Below are positions 32,752 to 35,823 of a stretch of DNA of 64,000 nt, piece after piece. Location: NCBI RefSeq assembly GCF_018881795.1, contig NZ_JACVPQ010000001.1:1029633-1093632 (forward strand). The letters run 5' to 3'. The DNA is from Polynucleobacter sp. MWH-Jannik1A5 (GTDB lineage Bacteria > Pseudomonadota > Gammaproteobacteria > Burkholderiales > Burkholderiaceae). The number at the start of each line of letters is the position of its first letter. Position 1 is the stretch's first letter. A program made the position numbers and the translations under genes. The notes under the pieces were generated by a model that was not told the DNA's origin, made no database searches, and saw only the letters and a program-made list of their open reading frames with translations.

Positions 32752-33066
32752 ATGGCAACTGCCAAGAAAAAACCTGCTGCAAAGAAACCAGCTGCTAAGA
32801 AAAAAGTAGCTGCTAAGAAGCCTGCTGCTAAAAAAGTAGCTAAAAAGAAGCCTGCTGCTAAGAAAAAAGTAGCTGCTAAGAAGCCTGCTGCTAAAAAAGT
32901 AGCTAAAAAGCGTCCTGCTGCTAAAAAAGCTGCGGCTAAAAAGCCAGCTGCTAAAAAAGTAGCTAAAAAGCGTCCTGCTGCTAAGAAAAAAGCTGCGGCT
33001 AAAAAGCCTGCTGCTAAAAAAGCTGCAAAAAAGGTTGCTAAAAAGCGCGTAGCAAAAAAAAAGTAA
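32752..33066 (+). CDS. Histone H1-like Lys/Ala-rich DNA-binding protein
   Basis: A 104-residue protein made almost wholly of Lys, Ala, Pro and Val, with repeated KKPAAKK/KKVAAKK units like eukaryotic histone H1 tails and bacterial HctB/AlgP proteins. It probably binds DNA without sequence specificity and compacts the nucleoid. AAGGAG sits 7 bp before the ATG. The annotated frame ends KKK-stop right after a nine-A run, whereas the -1 frame stays Lys/Ala-rich for 42 more residues and ends in a Trp/Pro-containing tail. The true full-length product may therefore be 146 residues. A strong terminator follows the extended frame, not the short one. Confidence 0.85.
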   Translation: MATAKKKPAAKKPAAKKKVAAKKPAAKKVAKKKPAAKKKVAAKKPAAKKVAKKRPAAKKAAAKKPAAKKVAKKRPAAKKKAAAKKPAAKKAAKKVAKKRVAKKK

Positions 33067-34293: not shown

Positions 34294-35823
34294 TTAAGGG
34301 TAAAGCACCCGCACGCGATAGCCTGCAGCATTGGGTGGCAAGTTGATTGGTAATTCAATCTGTAATAGCTCACCTGAAGGAATACCTTTTTTCAAAACGT
34401 CTGGATGCGTGTCTTGCCAAGTTTGAGGAATCCACTCTTGCGGAGAAAATTGCAGTGATTTGATTTCAGATTCTTCTGCATCTGTCAGAGTAATTTCTAA
34501 ATTTGGCGGTAAAACAGCAATCGCAAGACGATTTTGTATTTCAACTTGCAATAGAGATTGATTTGCGGGGCTTTTAAGGCCTTCTCGCACGTTTTCTGGT
34601 GAAAGTGCAGCTGAAGTTATTTTCCAGGCAGCAAAATCGCTTACAGCGCGATCTAGACATCCTAGTGCGCTACAAAGTTTTGCATCAATACGCTGTAAAA
34701 CTTGAAATGCGTTTACAGAAATCGCATGAGATGTTCCATCCACGCGTGGTGCGACTGCAGGAAGTAATGCATTTCTCGATAAATGCTCTCCAAAAACAAG
34801 TAAGAGCACCAAGAAAACAGCGTAAAGAGCTAACTTAAAACTTTTTTTTTGAGCAGGTGCAACAAAAGCAGTATCTGTACCGCTCTGTTTATCTTTGTTT
34901 AGGGTGCCATGCAAGCAAACCCAACCTTCGCTCTCTTTCCAGACTGAGAGTTTGAGCCATTGACTATATGTGGCAATGACCTCTTCAGCTTGGCGGGCAA
35001 GCACTCCCGATAAAACAATGCGTCCGCCTAATTTCATCTTATTTACCAGTGCAGGTGCAAGCACTTGCAGTGGGTTGGCCAAAATATTAGCCATCACGAT
35101 GTCGTATTTGGTCTCAGCGGCGAGTTCAACCGCACCTTCGTTTGGCAGAACAAAGCGAATGGTGGTGTTATTGATTTCTGCATTGCTACGGGCTGCAACC
35201 ATGGCTTGGGGGTCGATATCAGTACCGACGACGGGATTGCAACCCAGCTTTGCCGCAGCAATTGCCAAAATTCCTGAGCCACAGCCGTAATCCAAGAGGC
35301 TTTGGTTTTGTAAATTACCTTGTTGTTCAAGCCAAAGTAGGCATAAATGCGTAGTGGGATGACTGCCTGTACCAAAGGCAAGTCCAGGATCAACAGCAAG
35401 ACAAATCGCATTCGGATCACTTGGCGCATCGTGCCATGAAGGTACTACCCAAATGCGTTCACCAATCTGAATGGGGGCAAATTGACTTTGCGTAAGTCTG
35501 ACCCAATCTTGTTCTTCAACCGTCTTTTCTTGAGGAGGCGCTAACTGGAAGCCGGCCTCTTTAAGGGATTCCAGCAACTCAGGAATAAACTCTGCGGAAC
35601 CCGATGCATCAATATCGGGATTAAAGAGAGCGGTTACAGCGGATCGATCCCAGGCTTGTACTTCTGGAGAAAGTCCCGGCTCTCCATAGAGAGGGTTTTC
35701 ATCGTATCCGCCAGCGGCGTCGTCTTCAACAGTGACTGATAGGGCGCCCAATTCCAAAAGCGCATCACCCAGAGGTTCTGCGATTTCAGCTGCTACCGTG
35801 AATACCAGCTCACGATAAGACAT
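34294..35823 (-). CDS. prmA: PrmA (L11 methyltransferase) fused to a DUF3426 membrane domain
   Basis: One 509-residue frame joins two normally separate proteins. Residues 1-310 are PrmA, which trimethylates ribosomal protein L11: substrate-binding N-terminal domain, SAM motif LLDYGCGSGILA at 177-188 and ANILANPL near 245. Residues 331-347 form one transmembrane helix, and the rest is the DUF3426 periplasmic-type domain. The N-terminal zinc ribbon usual for DUF3426 proteins is missing. The join, at residues 325-328, is coded by nine consecutive A (34842-34850 on the minus strand); slippage by one base either way gives a stop within a few codons and frees PrmA. No ATG exists after residue 263. 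Confidence 0.88.
   Translation of the reverse strand: MSYRELVFTVAAEIAEPLGDALLELGALSVTVEDDAAGGYDENPLYGEPGLSPEVQAWDRSAVTALFNPDIDASGSAEFIPELLESLKEAGFQLAPPQEKTVEEQDWVRLTQSQFAPIQIGERIWVVPSWHDAPSDPNAICLAVDPGLAFGTGSHPTTHLCLLWLEQQGNLQNQSLLDYGCGSGILAIAAAKLGCNPVVGTDIDPQAMVAARSNAEINNTTIRFVLPNEGAVELAAETKYDIVMANILANPLQVLAPALVNKMKLGGRIVLSGVLARQAEEVIATYSQWLKLSVWKESEGWVCLHGTLNKDKQSGTDTAFVAPAQKKSFKLALYAVFLVLLLVFGEHLSRNALLPAVAPRVDGTSHAISVNAFQVLQRIDAKLCSALGCLDRAVSDFAAWKITSAALSPENVREGLKSPANQSLLQVEIQNRLAIAVLPPNLEITLTDAEESEIKSLQFSPQEWIPQTWQDTHPDVLKKGIPSGELLQIELPINLPPNAAGYRVRVLYP
34842..34850 (-). other. A9 run at the PrmA/DUF3426 junction
   Basis: On the coding strand the codons read CAA AAA AAA AGT, so A_AAA_AAA is in frame. 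A -1 shift gives AAG TTT TAA (stop after Lys-Phe); a +1 shift gives GTT TTA AGT TAG. Only the unshifted frame enters the membrane helix. Confidence 0.75.

Follow-up and report, generated by a model that had tools for sequence, protein, structure and literature searches.

In this Polynucleobacter genome, the gene for ribosomal protein L11 methyltransferase (PrmA) continues in frame into a membrane helix and a DUF3426 domain, and nine consecutive adenines lie at the join. Does such a gene make only the membrane-bound fusion, or does it also supply a soluble methyltransferase? We propose, with a probability of roughly two in three, that programmed transcriptional slippage at the A9 run, similar to that in Thermus dnaX, would yield soluble PrmA together with membrane-bound PrmA–DUF3426; the proposal is built on sequence comparison.

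The A9 run at the PrmA–DUF3426 junction

The fused prmA–TM–DUF3426 frame, whose unslipped product has 509 residues, occupies positions 34294..35823 on the minus strand of the window, the whole stretch of 64,000 nucleotides that was analysed. The PrmA domain covers residues 3–307 (34903..35817, minus strand; Pfam PF06325, E 1.3e-84), and its identity is supported by the curated equivalog TIGR00406, which it matches with 227.6 bits against a cut-off of 183.15. The DUF3426 domain covers residues 335–506 (34306..34821, minus strand) and matches PF11906 with an E-value of 2.3e-13 and 50.9 bits, above the gathering cut-off of 27.7. Between the two, residues 325–328 (Q K K S) are encoded by CAA AAA AAA AGT, which places nine A on the coding (minus) strand at 34842..34850, where the plus strand of the window reads T9. 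A membrane helix is predicted from the end of the run onwards (residues 328–357; 34753..34842, minus strand), and Kyte–Doolittle hydropathy is maximal, at 2.06, at residue 331. In the AlphaFold model, which was built from 22 sequences and has a mean pLDDT of 72.9 and a pTM of 0.43, residues 313–327 have a pLDDT below 50 and a long helix begins at residue 328. This low-confidence linker followed by a helix would place the run where the soluble enzyme gives way to the membrane portion.

Both other frames close soon after the run. The −1-frame stop, TAA at 34835..34837 (minus strand), would be reached if the RNA gained an A or if the ribosome shifted by −1, and the A10 product is predicted to end in Lys-Phe after 329 residues. 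The +1-frame stop, TAG at 34830..34832 (minus strand), would be reached through loss of one A from the RNA, and the A8 product is predicted to have 330 residues. An earlier note on this DNA had located the run at this junction, with a nearby stop after a shift in either direction and entry into a membrane helix in the unshifted frame; the sequence bears out each of these statements.

The source genome (2.0 Mb) contains five A9 runs. In the window, only two A/T runs of at least nine occur, the one described here and another 1.8 kb away, and A8 stretches number 5 versus 14.2 expected from dinucleotide shuffling, that is, fewer. Given the shuffling result, a single A9 is unremarkable by itself; what is remarkable is its conservation.

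Conservation of the run among relatives

A9 was found at the same place in 72 of the 80 loci of a first scan, which covered the best 80 of 99 relatives' loci. A de-duplicated set that included distant genomes comprised 164 sequences with a readable PrmA core, of which 137 are fused and 27 unfused; the run was scored as the longest A-run within about 45 codons past PrmA. A9 or A10 is present in 115 of the 137 distinct fused PrmA–DUF3426 sequences (A9 in 114, A10 in one), a count whose members share ancestry, are not independent and partly come from MAGs. The remaining 22 fused sequences carry A4–A8. Only 4 of the 27 unfused sequences have A9, namely three split genomes, described below, and a truncated fused copy (L152). 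In the main clade of the PrmA tree, the rooting of which is weak, there are 99 sequences, 98 of them scored; the run is exactly nine in 91/98, and the unscored one, L033, also reads A9. L179 and L180, read directly, have A9, as do both genomes of the source species (the source itself and L087).

The run is not tied to one peptide motif, since it occurs in three codon registers: CAA AAA AAA A, encoding QKKS, QKKR or QKKT; GTA AAA AAA AA, encoding VKKN with AAC as the last codon; and CTC/CCC AAA AAA AAA, encoding LKKK where CTC precedes the run. The nearest named relatives are Polynucleobacter. A protein match was obtained in 185 of the 186 genus genomes searched, although in a few of them the match is a fragment or a different methyltransferase. 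Of the 14 distant loci L131–L144, 12 were read at the junction, and in all 12 PrmA is separate from the ORF that follows; a search across the family, covering 120 genomes of which 11 belong to the genus, returned mainly PrmA-only matches outside the genus. The A9 run is conserved inside the predicted coding sequence, a property of slippage sites of the Thermus dnaX type.

Selection on the run and on the off-frame stops

Synonymous rates were analysed in 88 main-clade sequences with their tree, ten sequences of other linker length and L033, which was unmeasurable, having been dropped from the 99. Codons 0–4 and 6, counted from the start of the run, show 15 synonymous changes versus 73.8 expected. 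Within the run, the observed and expected numbers are 0/7.6 for Gln, 0/6.0 and 2/6.0 for the two Lys, and 5/16.2 for Ser; after it, they are 4/19.0 for Leu, 10/5.8 for Lys +5 and 4/19.0 for Leu +6. The first of these Leu codons, CTT, contributes the T to the TAA of the −1 frame, and the +1-frame stop comes from TTA. Lys +5 is the only free position here, and either AAA or AAG leaves both off-frame stops intact. Farther downstream, Leu +8 (25 versus 24.6) and Leu +9 (30 versus 20.5) are at or above expectation; the Ala codon preceding the run is also constrained (2 versus 22.3).

In windows of 10 and 12 codons, the run site has the lowest synonymous rate in the gene. In 8-codon windows, the site was lowest in an earlier alignment, which a linker insertion split at the run, and codons +91 to +97 fall below it with the 88 sequences. 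This second stretch lies in the DUF3426 part (about 34561–34581, minus strand), has 3 changes versus 62.4 expected, and also lies below the run site in 6-codon windows.

The codon following AAA AAA starts with A in 91/98 sequences. Where it encodes Ser it is AGY in 75/75, and where it encodes Arg it is AGR in 11/11; gene-wide, TCN makes up 69% of Ser codons and CGN 82% of Arg codons. Use of AGY and AGR against the preference of the gene indicates that the ninth A itself is maintained. Among the 91 A9 sequences, a stop within five codons is found in the −1 frame in 82, in the +1 frame in 68, in both in 61, and in at least one in 89; both stops are near at 6.9% of all codon positions in the same genes. 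Taken as single columns, the −1 and +1 stops rank only 8th and 9th or so, out of 506, by conservation of off-frame stops. The seven main-clade sequences that have lost A9 (A6–A8) include none with a near −1 stop, and all seven keep a near +1 stop; they form one tree neighbourhood, and the coincidence of run loss with stop loss reflects few events. Taken together, the data support maintenance of A9 and of the near off-frame stops by selection, which fits the mixture that the earlier note had supposed, with a short, soluble PrmA beside a long PrmA in the membrane.

Split genomes with swapped frames

Three genomes, L127, L128 and L130 (G111, G023 and G030), present the reverse arrangement. In them, prmA reads ...CTC AAA AAA AAA CTC and closes within a few further codons, and the DUF3426 ORF lies in the −1 frame and overlaps the end of prmA. 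The split ORF of L128 matches PF11906 with 52.5 bits. From the run to the membrane helix, L128 contains no ATG, GTG or TTG, L127 contains one GTG and one TTG, and L130 contains two TTGs; owing to these candidate start codons, internal starts could serve in L127 and L130. As judged from dN/dS, DUF3426 in the −1 frame of the split genomes is under purifying selection, with values of about 0.10 (L127–L128), 0.13 (L127–L130) and 0.20 (L128–L130), where both L127 comparisons have a dS above 2, near saturation. L171, the sister of the split genomes, has A10 and is in frame.

In the split lineages, unslipped mRNA would encode soluble PrmA, and slipped mRNA would encode the PrmA–DUF3426 fusion. Because the frames are swapped, what slipping at the same run yields would depend on the lineage, the long form in the split genomes and the short form elsewhere. 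In 89 of the 91 A9 sequences at least one off-frame closes soon after the run, and in the split genomes the −1 frame continues into a conserved extension, as is characteristic of sites of the Thermus dnaX type.

A second A9 site in an H1-like gene

The other long run in the window is a second conserved A9 at 33054..33062 (plus strand), at the 3′ end of an H1-like gene with AAKK repeats (32752–33066) whose HC2 match is below the cut-off. The gene terminates in GCA AAA AAA AAG TAA, and past the run its −1 frame continues for 42 codons, VSKPAAKKAGSAVKKPAAKKAAPATSALNPAAAWPFPTGTRP, up to a stop whose last base is 33191; this tail ends in AAWPFPTGTRP. A survey of the relatives' loci gave 99 distinct tails, of which 6 were too near an end and 93 were usable. 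A stop at the A-run severs the tail from the AAKK repeats in 89/93, and the tail is in frame in the other four (L047, L107, L118 and L121), which indicates that it is the C-terminus of the H1-like gene itself. A separate count of run lengths at this site gave A9 in 82 cases, A8 in 5, A10 in one and A7 in one. The codon preceding KKK has A as its third base in 70/75; before KK elsewhere in these genes, GCA accounts for 45 of 452 Ala codons. The H1-like site is probably a second programmed slippage or frameshift site, whose tail plain ORF calling would lose. Its A9 suggests, independently of prmA, that these cells make use of A9 slippage.

A9 is scarce in most of 101 genomes, often 3–10 copies each, with dozens in a few. 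In 41 genomes, the pattern CARAARAARAG has 1265 matches, only 87 of which are all-A, versus about 639 expected from prmA–DUF3426 codon usage; this expectation is rough, as the pattern counts ignore frame. Exactly two CA9G occur in 23/41 genomes, and the two in the source genome are the PrmA–DUF3426 and H1-like sites. An opposite-strand CA9G pair 1.74–1.81 kb apart is present in 28/41 genomes (counted from listed places). A broader reading, offered tentatively at somewhat under even odds, is of a genus-wide pair: A9 would be avoided mostly and kept at two neighbouring genes, RNA polymerase slippage would set how much of the L11 methyltransferase is soluble and how much membrane-anchored, and likewise the balance between a short and a long H1-like nucleoid protein, and at both genes the frames of the products would swap between lineages, with the run length remaining near nine.

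Proposed mechanism and alternatives

We propose the following mechanism for prmA. RNA polymerase would slip at A9 during transcription of prmA–DUF3426. Transcripts with 9 (or 12) A would encode the 509-residue PrmA–TM–DUF3426 membrane protein, and those with 8, 10 or 11 A would meet an early stop and encode a soluble PrmA of about 330 residues. One gene would in this way set the ratio of free L11 methyltransferase to an anchored form whose DUF3426 domain is presumed to lie in the periplasm. Free PrmA would methylate L11, and, by analogy with ZitP, the DUF3426 part of the tethered form may have a role in the envelope. The sequence, its domains, their conservation, the selection on run and stops and the swapped frames are observed; that slippage takes place and at what level, that the polymerase is the slipping agent, the orientation in the membrane and the use of two forms are inferred. 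According to excerpts of two papers (PMC5009743, PMC1088944), bacterial RNA polymerase slips in vivo at nine A or T; excerpts of another (PMC6260861) describe less slippage by E. coli RNA polymerase on A than on T runs, which counts against slippage at A9.

The best-surviving alternative, which we consider unlikely but well worth weighing, is ribosomal −1 frameshifting on A_AAA_AAA. The RNA would then be uniform; where the gene is fused, ribosomes moving back by one base would make the short PrmA, and in the split species, which require exactly a −1 shift, they would make the fusion. The heptamer A_AAA_AAA lies in frame within CAA AAA AAA and conforms to X_XXY_YYZ, and A_AAA_AAG is kept in frame in five A7 sequences and also in the H1-like gene. 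One tRNA-Lys was recovered (30/37 tRNA loci read), with anticodon UUU as in E. coli, and this tRNA makes ribosomal slipping on A-runs plausible too. In E. coli dnaX, the frameshift site is A_AAA_AAG plus stimulators. Like the PrmA site, the E. coli site combines an A-run heptamer with a single tRNA-Lys (PMC5009743, in part), and its short product ends near the shift; unlike it, the PrmA site also conserves a ninth A and a +1 stop, and a stimulator is not evident. A ribosomal shift needs neither the ninth A nor the +1-frame stop, yet both are conserved, and the H1-like gene keeps an additional upstream A. A Shine–Dalgarno-like upstream motif is present in 1/98 sequences, and synonymous sites just downstream, past codon +6, are unconstrained. 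Because the ninth A and both stops are conserved, and ribosomal stimulators are not evident from upstream motifs or downstream synonymous sites, we favour the polymerase over the ribosome.

It is improbable, in our estimate, that no recoding takes place and that A9 arises as a by-product when a conserved positive-inside anchor (Gln-Lys-Lys-Ser) ahead of the helix is written in A-rich codons. QKK is indeed highly conserved in the main clade, the gene uses CAA for 83% of Gln and AAA for 78% of Lys, and several other Gln and Lys columns are equally invariant. However, the run persists where the peptide is V-K-K-N or L-K-K-K, and in the VKKN clade it lies well before the helix. Codon usage notwithstanding, Ser stays AGY, Arg stays AGR, and both CTT and TTA are retained, while the third base of Lys +5 is free. 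Avoidance of A9 elsewhere in the genomes and the split species also speak against a by-product.

A pure amino-acid constraint was rejected, given the synonymous pattern together with the multiple registers.

Phase variation at the DNA level, in which indels in the run would toggle single cells between membrane and soluble PrmA as the earlier note had suggested, is highly improbable and was rejected as the main reading. In its favour, A-runs are mutable and L171 (A10) differs from its A9 sister species, a length difference between species. Against it, a run length so nearly fixed (nine in 91/98, and in L087) reads better as a slippage ratio than as an on/off switch.

Relation to known systems

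Transcriptional slippage at the PrmA run would resemble that in Thermus thermophilus dnaX (tau/gamma). According to excerpts of PMC5009743 and PMC1088944, that gene likewise has nine sense-strand A in a single ORF, near stops in both other frames, and a short and a long form, about half of its output being the short product. Unlike there, the long form of PrmA would gain a membrane helix and DUF3426, three relatives are frame-swapped, and slippage is predicted from sequence. In tssM1 of Citrobacter rodentium and tssM3 of Yersinia pseudotuberculosis, poly-A slippage gives truncated and full-length products, and, as proposed here, one species slips to the long form and the other to the short (PMC4256274, partial text). 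Unlike prmA, tssM is an unrelated secretion gene and has A11 in C. rodentium; slippage sites are uncommon among tssM genes according to the same partial text, whereas the prmA run is kept across most of the genus. For the membrane form, the likeness is to ZitP of Caulobacter (zinc finger–TM–DUF3426), which excerpts of PMC5182063 describe as bitopic with a predicted periplasmic DUF3426; where ZitP has an N-terminal zinc ribbon, PrmA stands here.

A literature search found DUF3426 and PrmA together in no paper, an L11 methyltransferase with slippage only in a Helicobacter genome paper, and nothing on this H1-like gene among the matches listed. For slippage in Polynucleobacter, the matches include a paper on chlD (PMC9227772, in part), which is a different gene. 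The terms 'L11', 'histone' and 'Polynucleobacter' are absent from the accessible main text of the GeneTack paper (PMC3711429), whose supplements could hold an earlier listing. The prmA site would appear to be a known type of recoding in a new gene, with frames swapped in sister species. In the accessible parts of this literature, productive transcriptional slippage in cellular genes has few examples (Thermus dnaX, tssM and type III secretion genes). If true, our reading would add an instance in a housekeeping gene related to translation, conserved through most of a genus. The long ORF probably represents just one of two forms in which PrmA is made. The fusion would be tolerable as slippage still supplies the unfused product. 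With swapped frames in sister species as a natural control and a second site close by, these culturable freshwater bacteria offer a testable case.

Fused lineages without the run

A clade of nine sequences (L124, L125, L129, L157, L163–L165, L167 and L168) is fused in frame through a linker that has no run of nine. PrmA of this clade may be wholly membrane-bound, in which case slippage is not essential everywhere and membrane-only PrmA is viable there. In other genomes, the fused gene is truncated or interrupted: L152 (G032) has an open frame of 409 residues, and internal stops occur in G031 (L162) and G033 (L153). The junction of L162 reads CAA AAG AAA AGT and hence has no A9.
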